A stretch of DNA of 64,000 bases. Source: an uncultured Prevotella sp. GTDB lineage: Bacteria; Bacteroidota; Bacteroidia; Bacteroidales; Bacteroidaceae. The notes below the pieces were generated by a model that saw nothing but the letters and a program-made list of their open reading frames with translations, searched no databases and had not been told where the DNA came from. Shown here piece after piece: positions 2,432 to 10,710 of this stretch. The position numbers and the translations under genes are program-made. The first letter of the stretch is position 1, and each line of letters begins with the position of its first letter. The stretch is from assembly GCA_900320905.1 (NCBI GenBank), contig ONTZ01000016.1, forward strand, positions 1 to 64,000, in the 5' to 3' direction.

Positions 2432-2463
2432 TTTGGTAGTTTCAAATAAAACATTTATCTTTG
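2432..2463 (+). promoter_or_regulatory. Promoter of the CHASE2 operon
   Basis: TTTG at 2432-2435 and TATCTTTG at 2456-2463, spacing 20 bases, with the first start codon at 2501. No comparable element precedes the three downstream genes, so it probably drives all four. Confidence 0.65.
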
Positions 2464-2500
2464 TCCCCGAAACAGTATAAACTTTTTAAAATTGACAATT

Positions 2501-3100
2501 ATGAAGACAATGAGATTTATTGTAGCGATGCTGTTGCTCGGAATGACCATCAGCGTGGCAGCCCAGAGTGAGAAACAATGGATGAAAGATGCCAAGAAGG
2601 AAGAAAAGCGCCTGAAGAAGGAGGGATGGCAGATTACACCAGGTAGTATACCCATGCTCCAGCAAATCTATAACTCCTACAAACTGAGGAACGAGATTGG
2701 CATGGACCTTGCACCCAAATATGTGTTCGGTAATGCACAGAGTATCGGCACGTTTTTCGATGCAGCCAAGACAGCAGCCACAGAAGTGGCCAAGGCTGAC
2801 ATGGTAGGTCAGATTTCCACAGAGATTACCCGATTGGTGTCTGAACAGATCTCCGCCAAGCAGATGTCGAATGATCAGGCAGAAGCCGTGATGGGTGTCG
2901 TTGAGAAGAGCAAGTCGATCGTTACCCAGAGACTGGGTGTCACGACGCCTGTCGTTCAGTTCTACCGCAAACTGCCCAACGGCAATACGGAAGTGATGAT
3001 GAGCATCGCCTACGACTTGGAAAAGATCACCAAGCAGTCAAAGGGTGTCGTCAACGACATGATGCACGAGGCCAACCTTGATATAGAACTCGCTCAATGA
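2501..3100 (+). CDS. Secreted protein of unknown function, first gene of the CHASE2 operon
   Basis: 199 residues beginning MKTMRFIVAM, with a signal peptide ending near VAAQ (about residue 22). A basic, lysine-rich segment follows (KDAKKEEKRLKKEGW), then an alternating helix/strand domain containing ATEVAKADMVGQISTEI and a late strand-rich part (VVQFYRKLPNGNTEVMMSIAYD). The pattern resembles LPP20-type envelope proteins, which often have an amphipathic 'A.A.A..l' helix followed by a receptor-like sheet, but I would not assign it firmly. Its stop overlaps the next start (ATGA at 3097-3100), showing translational coupling to the CHASE2 protein. Probably periplasmic. Confidence 0.85.
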   Translation: MKTMRFIVAMLLLGMTISVAAQSEKQWMKDAKKEEKRLKKEGWQITPGSIPMLQQIYNSYKLRNEIGMDLAPKYVFGNAQSIGTFFDAAKTAATEVAKADMVGQISTEITRLVSEQISAKQMSNDQAEAVMGVVEKSKSIVTQRLGVTTPVVQFYRKLPNGNTEVMMSIAYDLEKITKQSKGVVNDMMHEANLDIELAQ

Positions 3101-4248
3101 AGAAAGACAGCGGCTGGTTTTGGCATCATGTGGTGTCCACTGCCTTTGCGTTCGGCATTGTGGCCATCTATGCATTGCTTGCGTTCAACCTGAAGATATT
3201 CAACCCCTTGGTTCAGGTGTTGAAGGAGTACTCCATCACCGAGTTCTACTATCAGGTGATTGACTCGAAGGCAGAGCGCGACACGAGCCGCATCGTCTCC
3301 ATCGTTGACATGACGGAACTGACAGACCGTCGTGACATCGCCTATGCTCTCAACGAGGTACTGGAACAGCATCCGAAGGTGTTAGGCGTCGATATTTTGT
3401 TTAGCGGTCTAAAACCAGATAATCCTTTGGGTGACAGCCTGATAGCAGCCGTTGCTGCCAGAGACACTTCCATCGTTTTCGCCTTACAGTATTTCGATGA
3501 CTCCTTCGACGGCGAGCAGTTCAACAAGGTAAAGCAATCGTTCTTTGCCGACTCTATTCCGCAACTGAAAGAAGGACTTGTCAATATGCAACTGGACAAG
3601 GTGAACGGCTCGAGAAAGAAGATCAGTCTCGGCAAGACCGTGAAGGGCAAGTTGCGCCCCTCGATGATCAAGCAACTCTCGGATCTGTATGCTGAACAGG
3701 AAATCATGCCGCTCCAGGACAAGGAAATCAACATTAACTGGGCTTCGGTGGATTTTATGGTGATACCTTACGACTCGATTGCTGACTACGGGGAATACCT
3801 GACCGACCATATCGTCCTATTCGGTGCCATTGGCGACGAGACAGATATGCACTACACCCCGCGGGGAAAGATGCCAGGCATCAAACTACTGGCCTACGGC
3901 ATTGAGTCGATGGTGAAACAGACCACCGTCACCATTGCGCCGTGGTGGGTGAACGCCATCTTGTCGTTTATTGCCGTGCTGCTCACCAGAATGTTGTTTG
4001 AGTGGGGCGACCAATATGCGAAAGGCCGTAAAAACATCTTTGCGCGCATCGGTCTGAAGGCTGCCCTCGCCATGGGTATCCTGAAATTCCTTTGGATAGC
4101 CTTCCTGATGTATCTCGGCTTTATCGTATTCGCCAAGTACAACGTCAGCATCAACATCGCGCTGGCACTGGCTGCCATCCCATTCATCGGGCCCGCTGAG
4201 GATCTGTACAAAGTAATAACCAATAGTTTTTCAAATAAAGAGAAATAA
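3097..4248 (+). CDS. CHASE2 domain membrane protein without output domain
   Basis: 383 residues. One N-terminal membrane helix (about 13-33) is followed by a large extracytoplasmic CHASE2 sensor domain (about 40-275): RIVSIVDMTELTDR, VLGVDILFSGL, DHIVLFGAIGDETDMHYTP and MPGIKLLAYGIE are characteristic. Three hydrophobic helices follow (about 279-298, 318-345, 350-366), and the protein ends with a short charged tail. CHASE2 normally feeds a cyclase, histidine kinase or Ser/Thr kinase; none is fused here, so any signal must pass to a partner or this is a structural receptor. It overlaps the preceding gene by 4 bases and is followed after 3 bases by the FecR/transglutaminase-like gene. Inner membrane. 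Confidence 0.88.
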   Translation: MKKDSGWFWHHVVSTAFAFGIVAIYALLAFNLKIFNPLVQVLKEYSITEFYYQVIDSKAERDTSRIVSIVDMTELTDRRDIAYALNEVLEQHPKVLGVDILFSGLKPDNPLGDSLIAAVAARDTSIVFALQYFDDSFDGEQFNKVKQSFFADSIPQLKEGLVNMQLDKVNGSRKKISLGKTVKGKLRPSMIKQLSDLYAEQEIMPLQDKEININWASVDFMVIPYDSIADYGEYLTDHIVLFGAIGDETDMHYTPRGKMPGIKLLAYGIESMVKQTTVTIAPWWVNAILSFIAVLLTRMLFEWGDQYAKGRKNIFARIGLKAALAMGILKFLWIAFLMYLGFIVFAKYNVSINIALALAAIPFIGPAEDLYKVITNSFSNKEK

Positions 4249-4251
4249 CAT

Positions 4252-6267
4252 ATGAAAAAGAGATCGTTTCTGATTCTGTCTCTGACAGTGACCTTCGTTG
4301 CCTTGGCACAGGCGGCTGACAATTTAAGAGTCACCAGCGTCAAAGGAAAAATCACATTCATGACCAATAATGGTCAGCGTTTGCCTCTGGAGGTAAACGA
4401 TATCGTAGATAAGTCGACCATTATCAATATGCCCTTCCACGGTATGCTTGAACTGCTAGATCAGAGCAGCAAAAAGCGATACACCATCAATGTGCCTGGT
4501 CGGGCTCCCATCTCTGCCCTGCTGAGGGACAACCGCAATTCACTTGAGAACCTGACCCAACAATATGTCAAGACCCTGGTGAACGAGGTGACAAACAATG
4601 GAAAAATCAAAGGCAACGTTGTTTCTGAACCAGCCGCCATCACAAGGAAACTGGCAAAGGTGAAAGAATCAGACGGTATGGAACTGGATCTGGACATGGA
4701 CATGGACATGGACATGAGCCTGAACATGAATTTCAGTCAGAAAGACCTGATCAATGAATACCGTCAGTTCAGACAGCAGTGTACCAATACATACACCAAC
4801 TGGATGCGCGAGGCATGGCAGTCGTATACCGGTGAGGCTCCTAAGAAGGTGCCACAGGTGAAAGACGCACCTCCCGTATTCATCCCCGTCGACGACAACG
4901 GTGAGGAGGGCGAGCCCATCACCTACGAAGAGGCTAAGGCAGAGATCCAGAAAGGAGAGGTCGTCACTGCCGAAGAAACTACTGCCTCGTTCTTCTCGTT
5001 CCTCGGAAAGATTATAAAGGGAAAGGGGAAGAAAGACAAGAAGATCAAGGAGAACAAGAATCAGAAACTGGCCGTAGAGAAGGTGTACGACGATGTGGTA
5101 AAGGAGAAGCCAAAGGAGTCGAAAGCACTTGTTCCCATTGCTGCTGCGCCCGTGCAGGAAGGCGGTGTTAACACGACATTCCCGTTCACCATCTTCGGCA
5201 CGAAATACCAAGTAAGACTCAGTGATGCCTGCCGTTTTAAGTTGAAAGGCGTCACAGAGAATGATGTGGCAGATGCCATAGAACTGCTGTCGGACATCAA
5301 GTATGACAACCTGCTTTTCGACTGTCTGAAAATCCGCAAGGAGAACAAACTCTCCGACTGGGCCTACTTCCAGACCTTAGAGGCCTTGACAAACGATTTC
5401 TGTGGCAAGGGCTCCAACGAGGCCACCCTGCTGATGGGTTATATCTTGTCGCAGTCAGGCTACAAGGTGCGCCTGGGGCGTGACAATAATAAACTCGTGC
5501 TGCTGACAGCCAGTCAGCATACTATCTACAATAAGGTGGCCTATCGTCTTGACGGCGAGACATTCTACCTGCTTGACGGCAGTGTACAAACCCTGAGCAT
5601 CTGCCGTGCATCGCTCCCCAACGAGACTAGTATCTCACTTTTCATCCGTTCTGCGCAGAACTTCGACATAGACCAGTCGGAGGTACGTACCATTAAGTCG
5701 AGAGACTATCCTGACTTCACGGTAACCATCCACACCAACAAGAACCTGTTGAAGTTCTATGATACCTATCTGCCATCCTGTATGAACGACGAAGTGATGA
5801 CACGATGGGCTATGTATGCCAACACGCCGCTGTCAGAGGATGTCAAAGCAGAACTTTATCCCCAGTTGCGCTCTAAGTTGCAGGGTCTTTCAAAACTAGA
5901 AGGCATGCGCAGGCTGCTGAACCTGATACAGACGGGACTGGTCTATGAGTATGATGAGAACATCTGGGGAACCGACCGTGCCTTCTTTGCAGAGGAGACG
6001 CTCTACTACCCCTATTGCGACTGCGAAGACCGTTCCATCCTGCTGTCGAGACTGGTGAGAGACCTCTTAGGGCTGAAAGCCATCCTTATCTATTATCCTG
6101 GACACTTGGCTATGGCCGTACACTTCCCCGAGGAAGTGTCGGGCGACTATATTCTCCTGGAAGGTGAGAAATACATTGTTTGTGACCCAACATATATCGC
6201 TGCCACAGTCGGCAGGACGATGCCCGGTATGAACAACAATGAGGCCCGTGTCATTCTGTTGCAATAA
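4252..6267 (+). CDS. Secreted FecR-like / transglutaminase-like protein
   Basis: 671 residues with a signal peptide (about 1-21). Residues 24-100 look like a FecR-type beta domain (VTSVKGKITFMTNNGQRLP, then TINVPGRAPISALLRDN). A central charged, Lys-rich region contains a Met/Asp run encoded by (GACATG)4 at 4693-4716. The C-terminal part (about 540-671) looks like a papain-fold transglutaminase-like domain: Cys591 in CDCEDRSILL, a His in GHLAMAVHF (likely His624) and Asp645 in CDPTY would form the triad. Such domains act as peptidases or crosslinkers. With the CHASE2 protein directly upstream, an envelope processing role is plausible, but the substrate is unknown. It follows the CHASE2 gene by 3 bases and precedes the last gene by 18. 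Confidence 0.82.
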   Translation: MKKRSFLILSLTVTFVALAQAADNLRVTSVKGKITFMTNNGQRLPLEVNDIVDKSTIINMPFHGMLELLDQSSKKRYTINVPGRAPISALLRDNRNSLENLTQQYVKTLVNEVTNNGKIKGNVVSEPAAITRKLAKVKESDGMELDLDMDMDMDMSLNMNFSQKDLINEYRQFRQQCTNTYTNWMREAWQSYTGEAPKKVPQVKDAPPVFIPVDDNGEEGEPITYEEAKAEIQKGEVVTAEETTASFFSFLGKIIKGKGKKDKKIKENKNQKLAVEKVYDDVVKEKPKESKALVPIAAAPVQEGGVNTTFPFTIFGTKYQVRLSDACRFKLKGVTENDVADAIELLSDIKYDNLLFDCLKIRKENKLSDWAYFQTLEALTNDFCGKGSNEATLLMGYILSQSGYKVRLGRDNNKLVLLTASQHTIYNKVAYRLDGETFYLLDGSVQTLSICRASLPNETSISLFIRSAQNFDIDQSEVRTIKSRDYPDFTVTIHTNKNLLKFYDTYLPSCMNDEVMTRWAMYANTPLSEDVKAELYPQLRSKLQGLSKLEGMRRLLNLIQTGLVYEYDENIWGTDRAFFAEETLYYPYCDCEDRSILLSRLVRDLLGLKAILIYYPGHLAMAVHFPEEVSGDYILLEGEKYIVCDPTYIAATVGRTMPGMNNNEARVILLQ

Positions 6268-6285
6268 AAAGAAGCAGACAAGATA

Positions 6286-8136
6286 ATGAAAAAGTGGATA
6301 ATCATTGTAGCCTGTCTGTTGCCGATGGCGGCCATGGCACAGGATGTAACGGAGGAAGTAAAACGCATCAAGGCTGATCGCGACACCTACCTCTATGGTG
6401 AGGGCTATGGCGAGACAGAAGCCAATGCCGACAAGGAGGCCATGGCCAACCTGATGAGTAAGATCTCAGTGCAGGTAAGTAGTGACATCGAGATCAACGA
6501 GCAACAGGTGAACACGGCAGAAGGTATTGATGCCACATCCGTGGTGGAGTCGGTGGTCAAGACCTACACCGCAGGAACGTTGAAGAACACCCAGAGCATC
6601 ATCGTCACACCGGCTCCTAAGGCCTACGTGGTACGTTACATCAAGAAGACGGAGATTGAGCGTGTGTTCAAGGCCCGTGAGGAATTGATCTATGACTATC
6701 TGCGTGGTGCCAAGGAGGCAGAGAAGGTCTATCGCATCGCCGATGCCTTGCGCTATTACTACTGGGCATCATGCCTGCTGATGAGTATGCAGCACCCGCA
6801 GGAGATCAGGTATATGATTGACGGGGAGATGCATCTGCTGGCCTCGTGGATTCCTGAACAGATACGTGGCATCCTCAGTCGGCTGAAGGCAGAGGTCACT
6901 AAGATTGAAGATCTGGAAGTGAGCCTTCTGTTCACCTATATGGGCCAGCCTGTGACCAACCTCGACTTCTGCTATTGGGACGGCATGAACTATAGTAACC
7001 TGTGCTCCGTGAACAACGGCGTGTCCCTGATAGAGATGCGCCCAGGGGCTGATACAGAAAAACTGAAACTGCAGTATGAGTACGCATTCGAAAGTCAGAT
7101 GCAGCAGGTTCCTGAACTGAAACAGTTGATGCAGATATTCAAGCGAATCCCCTACCGTGAATCGGACGTGACGGTTGTGGCTGGCAAGAAGGCCGAACAG
7201 AAAAGGGCTATGCAAGTCTATCAGGCATCGGTAGCCACGGCGGGTGCAGCCACTCACGCCGTGGTGGTAGAGCAACCGAAAGAGTATACAAAGACGATAG
7301 ACAAGATCATCACCGCCATCAAGGCCAAGAACTATGCCTCTGTAAAGGACGAGTTTACTGATGACGGCTACGAGATGTTCGACAAACTGCTGCATTACGG
7401 CAATGCCACAGTATTAGGTAATCCCCAACTGAACTTCTATAAGATGAACGACCGCGTTGTCTGCCGCAGCGTGCCGATGCGCTTCACCTTCAAGAACAAC
7501 AACCGTACCCTCATCGAAGATGTCACCTTCACTTTCAATGACGACGATGAAATCGAGTCGGTAGCCTTCGGACTGGACAAGGCTGCTCGTGACGATATCT
7601 TCAACCGCGATGCTTCCGCCTGGAACGACAGCGTGCGAATGGTCATCGCCACCTTCCTGGAAAACTACAAGACGGCCTTCGCCCTGAAGCGCCTCGACTA
7701 TATCCAGAGCATCTTCGACGATGATGCAATCATCATCGTGGGACATATGACCAAACAGGCCAAGAAGAATATGGAGAACGGGAAATACATCGATAACCAA
7801 CTAGTAAAATACACCCGTATGGACAAGAACACGTACATCAAGAACCTGGAGCGCAGTTTCAAGAGCAACCAGTTCATCAACATCCGCTTCACCGACAACG
7901 AGGTGAAGAAGATGGGCAAGGGCGGTCAGACATACGGTATTCTGATACATCAGGACTACTATTCCTCGACCTATGGCGATACTGGCTATCTATTTCTGAT
8001 GGTCGACCTGAACGATATGGACCAACCCATCATCAAGGTACGCACATGGCAACCCAACCGTGATCCGAATATCAACGGCAACTTCTCGAAGAACGACCCG
8101 TACTACGGTTTGATATATGGCGGCAATTTTGATTAA
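6286..8136 (+). CDS. Secreted LPP20-like / NTF2-like protein, last gene of the CHASE2 operon
   Basis: 616 residues with a signal peptide ending AMAQ (about residue 19). Residues 25-130 resemble an LPP20-type domain (YGEGYGETEANADKEAMANL, then AYVVRYIKKTEIERVFK). The middle region is helical (AEKVYRIADALRYYYWASC, TPR-like in feel) and runs into a beta-rich segment. The C-terminal third contains an NTF2/SnoaL-like unit (VIATFLENYKTAFALKRLDY, QSIFDDDAIIIVGHM) as often found in lipoprotein-like periplasmic proteins. No catalytic residues are evident. Possibly a scaffold or ligand-binding partner of the preceding membrane sensor. Domain assignments are from pattern recognition only; the operon membership is clear from spacing and strand. 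Confidence 0.78.
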   Translation: MKKWIIIVACLLPMAAMAQDVTEEVKRIKADRDTYLYGEGYGETEANADKEAMANLMSKISVQVSSDIEINEQQVNTAEGIDATSVVESVVKTYTAGTLKNTQSIIVTPAPKAYVVRYIKKTEIERVFKAREELIYDYLRGAKEAEKVYRIADALRYYYWASCLLMSMQHPQEIRYMIDGEMHLLASWIPEQIRGILSRLKAEVTKIEDLEVSLLFTYMGQPVTNLDFCYWDGMNYSNLCSVNNGVSLIEMRPGADTEKLKLQYEYAFESQMQQVPELKQLMQIFKRIPYRESDVTVVAGKKAEQKRAMQVYQASVATAGAATHAVVVEQPKEYTKTIDKIITAIKAKNYASVKDEFTDDGYEMFDKLLHYGNATVLGNPQLNFYKMNDRVVCRSVPMRFTFKNNNRTLIEDVTFTFNDDDEIESVAFGLDKAARDDIFNRDASAWNDSVRMVIATFLENYKTAFALKRLDYIQSIFDDDAIIIVGHMTKQAKKNMENGKYIDNQLVKYTRMDKNTYIKNLERSFKSNQFINIRFTDNEVKKMGKGGQTYGILIHQDYYSSTYGDTGYLFLMVDLNDMDQPIIKVRTWQPNRDPNINGNFSKNDPYYGLIYGGNFD

Positions 8137-8185: not shown

Positions 8186-8234
8186 ACTTGCGGCTGATTG
8201 CAACTCGGTTGCAAGTTTATTTTTTGTACCTTTG
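8186..8234 (+). terminator. Hairpin and T-tract joined to the feoAB promoter
   Basis: Two alternative stems are possible: ACTTGC (8186-8191) with GCAAGT (8211-8216), or TTGCAA (8198-8203) with TTGCAA (8209-8214). A TTTATTTTTTG run follows and leads straight into TACCTTTG (8227-8234), the -7 element for feoAB, whose ATG is at 8254. The stems are short, so termination strength is uncertain. Confidence 0.45.
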
Positions 8235-8253: not shown

Positions 8254-10710
8254 ATGAAACTATCAGAGTTAAAGACAGGTGAGAAAGGCGTCATCGTCAA
8301 GGTGTTGGGCCACGGTGGATTCCGTAAACGTATCATCGAGATGGGATTCATCAAGGGCAAGGAAGTGGAGGTATTGCTCAATGCTCCACTTCAGGATCCC
8401 GTAAAATATAAACTGATGGGCTATGAGGTGAGCCTCAGACATCAGGAGGCCGAAAGCATCGAGGTCGTGAATAGTGAGGAGTTAAGAGTGAAGAGTGAAG
8501 AATATGCTGCCACCTCGGCTTCTTCAGACACGAAGGTTGGCGATTCTTCATTCTTCGCTCTTGACTCTGCACTCCATAAGGATGACTACCTGCAGCACGC
8601 TGCCTGGAAGGAACGCCGAACCATCAACGTGGCGCTCGTGGGCAATCCTAACTGCGGAAAGACCTCGCTTTTCAACTACGCCAGCGGCGCTCACGGACAC
8701 GTGGGCAACTACAGCGGTGTCACCGTCGATGCTACCGAGGCACACGCCTCCTTCTTCGGCTACGAGTTCAACCTCACCGACCTGCCCGGCACCTACTCTT
8801 TAAGTTGCTACTCCCCAGAGGAACTCTACGTGAGGGAACACCTAACGGAAAAGATGCCCGACGTAGTAATCAACGTTATCGACGCCTCGAACATCGAACG
8901 TAATCTCTACCTGACAACCCAACTGGTGGATATGAATATCCGTATGGTGTGCGCACTGAACATGTACGACGAGTTTGAGCGCCGCGGCGACCAGGTGAAC
9001 CTCGACACGCTCAGCAATCTGTTCGGCATCCCGATGATTCCCACCTCGTTCAAAAGCGGTGAAGGCGTGAAGGACCTGTTCCGCACCGTCATCCAAGTGT
9101 ATGAGGGCGCCAACAAATGGTCGCGCCACCTGCATATCAATTACGGACATGAGATAGAGGATGGTATCGCCCATATCCAGAAATACCTGAAGGCCGACGA
9201 GCATATCACCCAGCACTACTCTACCCGATACCTCGCCCTGAAACTGCTGGAGCACGACAGTCAGGTACTTGACTATCTGGGCAAGCACATGGCGGGCGAA
9301 CAGCGCATGCACGACTTCCACGAACTGACGCATGCCCGCGACCGTGCCTCGGCGCGCGTAAAAGAAGAGACTGGCAACGACTCCGAAACGGCCATCATGG
9401 ATGCAAAGTACGGTTTTATCAACGGCGCGCTGAAGGAGGCGGGCTTCAAGACGGGTACGAAGAAAGACACCTACCGCACCACACACATGATCGACGGTGT
9501 GCTGTCGCACAAGTACCTCGGCTTCCCCATCTTCTTCCTGCTGCTCTACGTGATGTTCGAGACGACATTCGCGCTGGGGCAGTATCCGATGGACTGGATT
9601 GAGGCGTTCGTGGCGTGGGCTGGCGATCGGGTGACAGCAACGATGGCCGAGGGTCCTTTGAAGGCTATGCTCGTGGATGGCGTCATCGGTGGCGTGGGAA
9701 GCGTCATTGTGTTCCTGCCACAGATCTTGATTCTTTATTTCTTCATCTCGCTGATGGAAGACAGCGGCTACATGGCTCGCGCGGCCTTCATCATGGATAA
9801 ACTGATGCACAAGATGGGTCTGCACGGCAAGTCGTTCATCCCCCTCATCATGGGCTTCGGCTGCAATGTGCCTGCAGTGATGGCTACACGTACCATCGAG
9901 AGCCGCCGCTCGCGCATCATCACAATGATGGTACTGCCGTTTATGTCGTGCTCTGCACGTCTCCCCATCTATATCATGATCACAGGCACGTTCTTCTCAC
10001 TGCAGTACCGCTCGTGGGTGATGCTGTCGCTCTACGCCATCGGCATTGTAATGGCGGTTGTAGTAAGCAAGGTCTTTTCCACGCTGGTCATCAAGGGCGA
10101 GGACACACCCTTCGTGATGGAACTGCCTCCCTACCGTTGGCCGACAGCGAAAGCCATCGGGCGCCACACGTGGGAGAAGGGCAAGGAGTACCTGAAGAAG
10201 ATGGGAGGCATCATCCTCGTGGCCTCCATCATCGTCTGGGCCCTGGGGTATTTCCCCCACAATGAGTCACTGCCTCGCGAGCAACAACAGGAACAGAGTT
10301 ATATCGGACGCATGGGCAAGGCCATCGAACCAATCTTTACTCCTCAGGGGTTCAACTGGAAACTGGATGTGTCGCTGTTGGCGGGTGTGGGTGCCAAGGA
10401 GATTGTGGCCTCAACTATCGGCGTGTTATACAGTGGGGATGACTCTTTCGCAGATGATGAGGAGTTCAGCGATGACAATGAAAAATATACGCACCTGAGG
10501 CAGATGATGCTTCAGGAAGGTATCACGCCATATGCCGCCTACGCGTACCTTATATTTATATTACTATATTTCCCTTGCATCGCCACCATTGCCGCCATCA
10601 AGAATGAAACAGGCTCGTGGCGATGGGCTACCTTTGCAGCCCTCTATACCACCACCGTGGCGTGGATCATGAGTGCAGTAGTCTATCAAATCGGAGGATT
10701 GTTTGTGTAA
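8254..10710 (+). CDS. feoB: Ferrous iron transporter, FeoA-FeoB fusion
   Basis: About 818 residues starting MKLSELKTGEKG at 8254; the upstream ATG at 8188 would start before the promoter element. Residues 1-75 are a FeoA SH3-like domain. A linker (about 72-112) is Ser/Glu-rich and is encoded by an inverted pair of a short repeat (see findings). Then comes the FeoB G domain (GNPNCGKTSLF, then DLPGTYSL), the helical GDI region and two Gate domains with Cys-containing NVPAVMATRTIESRRSR and multiple membrane helices. It imports Fe(II) across the inner membrane with the G domain as regulatory GTPase. FeoA-FeoB fusion is usual in Bacteroidota. The gene is monocistronic or reads into ruvC. Confidence 0.95.
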   Translation: MKLSELKTGEKGVIVKVLGHGGFRKRIIEMGFIKGKEVEVLLNAPLQDPVKYKLMGYEVSLRHQEAESIEVVNSEELRVKSEEYAATSASSDTKVGDSSFFALDSALHKDDYLQHAAWKERRTINVALVGNPNCGKTSLFNYASGAHGHVGNYSGVTVDATEAHASFFGYEFNLTDLPGTYSLSCYSPEELYVREHLTEKMPDVVINVIDASNIERNLYLTTQLVDMNIRMVCALNMYDEFERRGDQVNLDTLSNLFGIPMIPTSFKSGEGVKDLFRTVIQVYEGANKWSRHLHINYGHEIEDGIAHIQKYLKADEHITQHYSTRYLALKLLEHDSQVLDYLGKHMAGEQRMHDFHELTHARDRASARVKEETGNDSETAIMDAKYGFINGALKEAGFKTGTKKDTYRTTHMIDGVLSHKYLGFPIFFLLLYVMFETTFALGQYPMDWIEAFVAWAGDRVTATMAEGPLKAMLVDGVIGGVGSVIVFLPQILILYFFISLMEDSGYMARAAFIMDKLMHKMGLHGKSFIPLIMGFGCNVPAVMATRTIESRRSRIITMMVLPFMSCSARLPIYIMITGTFFSLQYRSWVMLSLYAIGIVMAVVVSKVFSTLVIKGEDTPFVMELPPYRWPTAKAIGRHTWEKGKEYLKKMGGIILVASIIVWALGYFPHNESLPREQQQEQSYIGRMGKAIEPIFTPQGFNWKLDVSLLAGVGAKEIVASTIGVLYSGDDSFADDEEFSDDNEKYTHLRQMMLQEGITPYAAYAYLIFILLYFPCIATIAAIKNETGSWRWATFAALYTTTVAWIMSAVVYQIGGLFV

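Follow-up and report, generated by a model that had tools for sequence, protein, structure and literature searches.

In a 64,000-nucleotide stretch of DNA from an uncultured Prevotella sp. (assembly GCA_900320905.1, contig ONTZ01000016.1; hereafter the window, comprising the first 64,000 of the contig's 72,939 bases), four co-directional genes encode a solo CHASE2 membrane protein (gene 2), a likely secreted FecR/retention-like domain fused to a transglutaminase-like (TGL) fold domain (gene 3), and two proteins with LPP20-like features (genes 1 and 4). As judged from sequence, the core of this system is the pair of CHASE2 and the FecR/retention-like domain (hereafter FecR-like), and the cysteine-peptidase-fold protein encoded nearby is exchangeable; the window holds the TGL version, in which the enzyme is fused to the FecR-like domain. 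We give an even chance to the explanation that CHASE2 and the FecR-like/TGL protein constitute a receptor that switches envelope proteolysis on and off, as LapD does with LapG.

The neighborhood of CHASE2 was examined in a genus sample of 249 genomes, in which 52 CHASE2 places were found, the place in the window being counted by hand. A gene was scored as a neighbor if it was on the same strand and within three closely spaced genes. The neighbor profiles were partly trained on these loci and seeded with Pfam-confirmed caspases and CHATs. The genomes are related, so the co-occurrence counts are not independent events. CHASE2 is patchily distributed, occurring in 48 of the 249 genomes (47 over the cut-off). 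A FecR-like domain is near 50 of the 52 CHASE2 places and a peptidase-fold gene near 45, comprising 24 places with a TGL enzyme (nine with a caspase as well), 14 with a caspase, six with a CHAT, and one with both caspase and CHAT. A rough chance estimate for a peptidase gene on that strand no more than 5 kb away, a yardstick that differs from the three-gene rule and for which genome size was set at 2.9 Mb, is 0.29 places; the 249 genomes contain 155 caspase, 117 CHAT, and 66 TGL matches. At the genome level, the search tables alone gave 42 genomes with both CHASE2 and the FecR-like domain, six with CHASE2 only, one with the FecR-like domain only, and 200 with neither, and four of the six CHASE2-only genomes (G406, G461, G475, and G503) were later seen to have a FecR-like domain. 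Gene 4 is near only 11 and gene 1 near only 19 of the 52 places, and the fixed four-gene system proposed in a first-pass annotation of the window was rejected on these counts. The co-occurrence in other Bacteroidales that the annotation had suggested looking for is found for CHASE2, the FecR-like domain, and the peptidase, and at a minority of places for genes 1 and 4.

Few genomes of the order carry CHASE2 (13 of 295). In the order beyond the genus, a FecR-like domain is found at ten and a caspase at eight of 12 CHASE2 places (one with a CHAT as well). In a phylum sample, CHASE2 is present in 137 of 395 genomes, mostly in long frames among the matches listed. Of these CHASE2-bearing genomes, 17 were examined more closely; among 14 solo CHASE2 places that we picked outside the order, nine have a FecR-like domain, three have a caspase (two without a FecR-like domain), and three have neither (L225, L234, and L235). 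A single 750-aa protein (L238), encoded by a genome that falls outside the class, joins CHASE2 (E 4.8e-23) to a FecR-like domain; its FecR-like half is recognized by our own profile at 72 bits and has no Pfam FecR match. The earlier suggestion that CHASE2 acts via partner proteins gains support from this context: the FecR-like domains and peptidases near 50 and 45 of the 52 genus places, together with the L238 fusion, point to such partners.

Counting was also performed from the TGL enzyme, using the best 80 of 519 confirmed TGL loci and neighbors within 4 kb. Both CHASE2 and a FecR-like domain are present in 46 of the 80 loci, the FecR-like domain only in four, CHASE2 without the FecR-like domain in none, and neither in 30. 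One CHASE2-TGL pair (L041) belongs to the cultured isolate Prevotella sp. P5-50. In two of the four loci with only a FecR-like domain (L032 and L036), a diverged CHASE2 is encoded further along the operon. Four of the 30 loci with neither (L044, L056, L072, and L081) adjoin a sigma-factor-like gene: these TGL operons without CHASE2 carry a caspase and a sigma-70-region-4-like protein (one was scanned and fell just under the cut-off); they also have, ahead of gene 1 and the TGL gene, a protein that combines a hydrophobic segment with a TPR-like tail. This composition hints at a second mode of control. Near the operons, PEGA-type proteins form two clusters, present in 11 and 5 of 84 loci, and of the same 84 loci five encode a barrel-type protein and three encode DUF285 proteins. 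Each kind was called from one scanned representative, and all are candidate substrates or partners. Large surface-type proteins that are possible substrates are also encoded beside the operon at L007:4179-8165 (leucine-rich-repeat-like by eye) and at L054:14247-17245 (DUF285).

The exchangeable caspase and CHAT partners mostly retain their catalytic residues. Among caspase rows from CHASE2-anchored loci, 48 of 51 have the catalytic His and Cys, as do all nine CHAT rows. By a loose rule of our own, with a background of 91 of 204, signal-peptide-like starts are present in 34 of 38 caspases and six of seven CHATs near CHASE2; these partners would therefore act outside the cytoplasm. Scanned examples of the caspase and CHAT partners carry Sel1, TPR, or WG repeats. 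A CHASE2 tree of 73 rows, which was built by a quick method, is unrooted, has flagged long branches, and leaves out five of the 14 rows from outside the order, places the TGL users on one branch of 25 rows (24 with TGL and one cut by a contig end) and the caspase and CHAT partners on several branches, with the partner type changing at least five times. Because the TGL users form one branch and the caspase and CHAT partners are spread over several, the TGL version may be a later enzyme exchange within an older set. No caspase or CHAT match was found in the genome of the window, which is 82% complete. The genome G428 has ten caspase-domain matches, five of which are within L195 around a CHASE2-TGL operon.

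Gene 2 matches Pfam CHASE2 (PF05226) over residues 76-295 with 54.2 bits against a cut-off of 26.3 (E 2e-14). Hydropathy alone places hydrophobic segments near residues 12-30, 278-301, 314-346, and 343-367, giving one segment before CHASE2, overlapping segments after it that fit three, and a C-terminal tail of ~16 residues. With so short a tail, the protein has no kinase, cyclase, or other recognizable cytoplasmic output, in agreement with the first-pass annotation of a membrane-bound CHASE2 sensor that lacks one. No Pfam domain besides CHASE2 was found in gene 2 at E<=10, and hence no c-di-GMP-binding or HAMP domain of the LapD type. To our knowledge, no CHASE2 ligand has been identified, and kinases, cyclases, and a small number of fused caspases make up the CHASE2 outputs known to us.

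Gene 3 matches no Pfam model at E<=10, and hence neither the LapG family (Peptidase_C93) nor Transglut_core (PF01841), the latter of which is matched by 14 of 28 relatives at E<=1 (best 0.0049). A search of the gene 3 sequence against solved structures returned three hits (best E 0.34), with no peptidase among them. The predicted model has the TGL fold and is closest to LapG, without a clear margin and with modest scores, as is the case for the predicted-model fold matches in general. A predicted triad of C591, H618, and D645 follows the TGL order and is kept in 112, 115, and 115 of 115 aligned rows, respectively, some of which are duplicates from the same genomes; the three rows without the Cys have Ser in its place. 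In the model, a helix starts at Cys591, and the conserved residues D568 and D575 lie before it in the sequence. The triad in the first-pass annotation agrees with this one at Cys591 and Asp645, and its His624 was rejected as the catalytic His because this residue is poorly kept (39 of 116 rows) and the conserved His is H618. Short second TGL genes with Ser for the catalytic Cys are present at L032:16417-17115, L036:10282-10986, and L043:11920-12642, where they adjoin a diverged CHASE2 and a protein that is FecR-like by eye; they are possibly enzyme-dead second modules. Residues 310-480 of gene 3 (window 5179-5691) resemble the TGL domain in their order of helices and strands, and a degenerate tandem TGL domain suggested by this similarity found no support in profile comparison (hhalign prob 0.4).

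The FecR-like part of gene 3 belongs to a domain that is encoded alone (~165 aa), ahead of other sequence (~300 aa), or fused to TGL; some TGL loci thus have it as a gene of its own and others as a fusion. For 32 FecR-like rows, the 25 families shown do not include Pfam FecR (PF04773), and the other nine families have one member each. Among NCBIfam models, retention_LapA (NF033682) is matched more often than any other (by 4 of 32 members, best E 0.00039), and the closest predicted-fold match is 5ix9. Comparison of the FecR-like profile with four FecR-reference proteins near CHASE2, of which only two match Pfam FecR (L239 and L240), gave a weak alignment (hhalign prob 79.6, P 1.5e-5, 47 columns). 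The aligned stretch covers residues 39-86 of the L239 protein and mostly precedes its Pfam FecR match (71-167), leaving the kinship with FecR unsure. The FecR-like part named in the first-pass annotation is thus not a Pfam FecR domain, and its profile support is weak. If the FecR-like domain and FecR are kin, the pairing of CHASE2 with FecR would be old and general, and the difference here would be that the output has left the cytoplasm.

These parts invite comparison with LapD, an inner-membrane receptor described as holding the periplasmic TGL protease LapG and releasing it to cut an adhesin (PMC3032545, PMC4359373). The best reading is that the present system works like LapD-LapG from unrelated sensor parts, and we infer its control, substrate, and signal. 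The FecR-like domain would dock on CHASE2 and bring the enzyme to the inner membrane; an extracytoplasmic cue sensed by CHASE2 would alter this contact, so that the enzyme is held or released; and the TGL domain, acting as a protease and not as a cross-linker, would then cut proteins of the envelope or the cell surface. Periplasmic accessory or docking parts may come from genes 1 and 4. The resemblance to LapD-LapG-LapA of Pseudomonas, and to DvhD-DvhG of Desulfovibrio, extends to an inner-membrane receptor, a periplasmic cysteine protease with the TGL fold and a C-H-D triad (here predicted) (PMC3032545, PMC4359373), and a retention-module-like domain among the parts; a part in protease binding is reported for the retention domain itself in Desulfovibrio (PMC13090378). 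In contrast to those systems, the sensor here is a CHASE2 with no cytoplasmic receptor for c-di-GMP, the retention-like domain is either joined to the protease or encoded beside it, no giant adhesin was identified, and the enzyme lacks a Pfam match to the LapG family and may be replaced by a caspase or CHAT. As there is neither a Peptidase_C93 match nor a cytoplasmic receptor domain, membership in the LapD-LapG family is not claimed. Of the best 80 of 519 TGL loci, 30 have no CHASE2 or FecR-like domain nearby, so no single mode of control holds for the enzyme throughout.

Other described systems share single elements with this one. The Burkholderia BiofilmReg operon, described as a response regulator, a LysM-FecR protein, a CHASE2 histidine kinase, and a DUF4136 protein, likewise places a FecR protein beside a CHASE2 membrane protein, whereas its CHASE2 is fused to a histidine kinase and signals into the cytoplasm, and no peptidase is among the four genes that the source lists (PMC5192318). 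CHASE2-guanylate cyclases of other Bacteroidota (L239 and L240) have FecR one gene from CHASE2, with the difference that their output is a cyclase fused to CHASE2. In a Trichodesmium metacaspase-CHASE2 fusion, a caspase fold is linked to a CHASE2 with one transmembrane segment before and three after; its caspase is predicted to be cytoplasmic, unlike the enzymes here, which look secreted and are encoded by separate genes with a FecR-like partner (PMC3501461). The same source, in its section on operons, reports signaling, sensor, and regulatory domains in 23 metacaspase operons without naming these domains there, and single cases of the present set may be among them (PMC3501461).

The alternative that fares best, although we consider it unlikely, is constitutive envelope processing, in which CHASE2 would serve purely as a membrane anchor and the FecR-like domain purely as a clamp, and the enzyme would steadily process secreted proteins without sensing. 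The lack of an output domain on CHASE2 fits this alternative, as do the PEGA-type, barrel-type, and DUF285 neighbors, which a maturation machine might have around it. Elsewhere, however, CHASE2 signals near FecR, both in the guanylate cyclases L239 and L240 and in the Burkholderia histidine kinase as described (PMC5192318), a counterpoint that is itself weakened by the unsure FecR kinship of the FecR-like domain.

Two further explanations are both improbable, to a similar degree. In the first, the genes form an envelope cell-death or defense module in which a sensor, when the cell comes under attack, sets off secreted effectors that may be caspases, CHATs, or TGL proteins in exchange for one another. 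Effector exchange combined with patchy presence (CHASE2 in 48 of 249 genus genomes) is in keeping with defense, both caspase partners tested match the PADLOC caspase model, and other predicted systems have been described in which effectors, TGL peptidases included, are exchanged (PMC8195603). The signal-peptide-like starts given above, in contrast, would send the effectors out of the cytoplasm, the four proteins of the window match no PADLOC family at E<=0.01, and the flanks contain a patatin gene and a FeoB-like gene (by eye) rather than defense genes. In the second, the TGL domain links instead of cutting, working on envelope proteins or peptidoglycan as a genuine transglutaminase or as an amidase. 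This is at odds with the closest fold match being the protease LapG and with TGL occupying the place of caspases or CHAT proteins in related CHASE2 loci, although the two enzymes need not be equivalent because nine of the 24 TGL places also carry a caspase. That the four genes are mere neighbors without joint function is very hard to credit even though the full set is a minority form (gene 4 being near 11 of the 52 CHASE2 places), given a peptidase fold at 45 of those places against a rough 0.29 expected, the finding that CHASE2 never occurs without the FecR-like domain in the best 80 of 519 TGL loci, and the natural CHASE2-FecR-like fusion L238.

The two remaining genes of the operon resemble the LPP20 family to differing extents. 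The N-terminus of gene 4 (residues 31-98) reaches 23.9 bits with LPP20 (PF02169), just under the cut-off of 25.9, and its C-terminus matches Cds6_C at E 0.51 only. A 331-aa relative of gene 4 is encoded one gene further on in nine caspase-type loci, and the one that was scanned matches Cds6_C at E 0.0069. Gene 1 has no LPP20 match by sequence; five of 40 family members match weakly (best 0.0026), and its predicted fold is LPP20-like (a model with modest scores). The LPP20-type assignment of the first-pass annotation thus falls just short of the family cut-off for gene 4. Compared with the Helicobacter Lpp20 family, which the predicted fold of gene 1 and the sub-threshold match of gene 4 recall, the arrangement here differs in that two such proteins share an operon with a CHASE2-peptidase set.

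The operon occupies 2501-8136, with a 4-base overlap followed by gaps of 3 and 18 bases, and the other features are collected in Table 1. The tight packing and gene positions of the first-pass annotation were reproduced exactly, its three signal peptides correspond to signal-peptide-like starts by our loose rule on genes 1, 3, and 4, and its single promoter coincides with the one Bacteroidetes-type motif ahead of the operon. This motif, which we take to be TTTG-N20-TATCTTTG, occurs nine times in the window, where shuffled sequence gives an expected 0.44. Terminator-like sites number seven against 5.5 (sd 2.7) in shuffles, which is not above the shuffled number. Upstream, ~420 bases separate gene 1 from a patatin gene, and at L005:1612-8250 there is ~6.6 kb of extra sequence between these two genes. 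Directly downstream, window 8254-10707 encodes a fused iron transporter that is FeoA-FeoB-like by eye, and its place next to the operon is retained in the close relatives L005-L007 and L243. An empty insertion site was sought and could not be demonstrated: in the FeoB loci of 28 relatives, L242 and L243 aside, the flank (at most ~1.5 kb) gave no match to the window's patatin or operon genes, and paralogues are among these FeoB genes. The nearest named loci to the window are from Prevotella metagenome-assembled genomes of ruminants, and plasmid records gave one partial match among 72,556.

Table 1. Features of the CHASE2-TGL operon, in window positions
Feature	Positions	Strand	Basis
Bacteroidetes-type promoter motif TTTG-N20-TATCTTTG	2432..2463	+	exact match
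Gene 1: 199-aa protein, signal-peptide-like start, predicted LPP20 fold	2501..3100	+	
Gene 2: solo CHASE2 membrane protein, 383 aa, without cytoplasmic output domain	3097..4248	+	Pfam CHASE2 and hydropathy
Gene 3: 671 aa, FecR/retention-like domain fused to TGL fold domain, signal-peptide-like start	4252..6267	+	
FecR/retention-like domain of gene 3, residues 22-92	4315..4527	+	
TGL domain of gene 3, residues 510-671	5779..6264	+	
Cys591 codon of gene 3, predicted nucleophile	6022..6024	+	Cys in 112/115 rows; helix start in model
His618 codon of gene 3, predicted catalytic His	6103..6105	+	115/115 rows
Asp645 codon of gene 3	6184..6186	+	115/115 rows
Gene 4: 616 aa, signal-peptide-like start, LPP20-like N-terminus, possible NTF2-like C-terminus	6286..8136	+	
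Terminator-like hairpin and T run, after the operon	8198..8214	+	terminator-like site search

Literature searches in a library without most subscription papers or bioRxiv preprints returned no description of this gene set and, with the same partial coverage, nothing joining CHASE2 with CHAT, FecR with CHAT, or CHASE2 with a periplasmic protease. We tentatively propose, with somewhat less than even confidence, that these loci represent an unnamed and widespread class of receptor, confined to one membrane and with neither a kinase nor a cyclase as its output, in which CHASE2 reads the outside, a FecR/retention-like domain serves as the docking plug, and a swappable caspase, CHAT, or TGL protease turns the signal into cutting outside the cell. 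The analysis names the FecR-like domain as a candidate binding partner of CHASE2. If the proposal is true, Bacteroidales would possess receptors whose action is confined to the envelope and whose exchangeable outputs are proteases, and the secreted caspase and CHAT proteins of Bacteroidales would gain a testable role.

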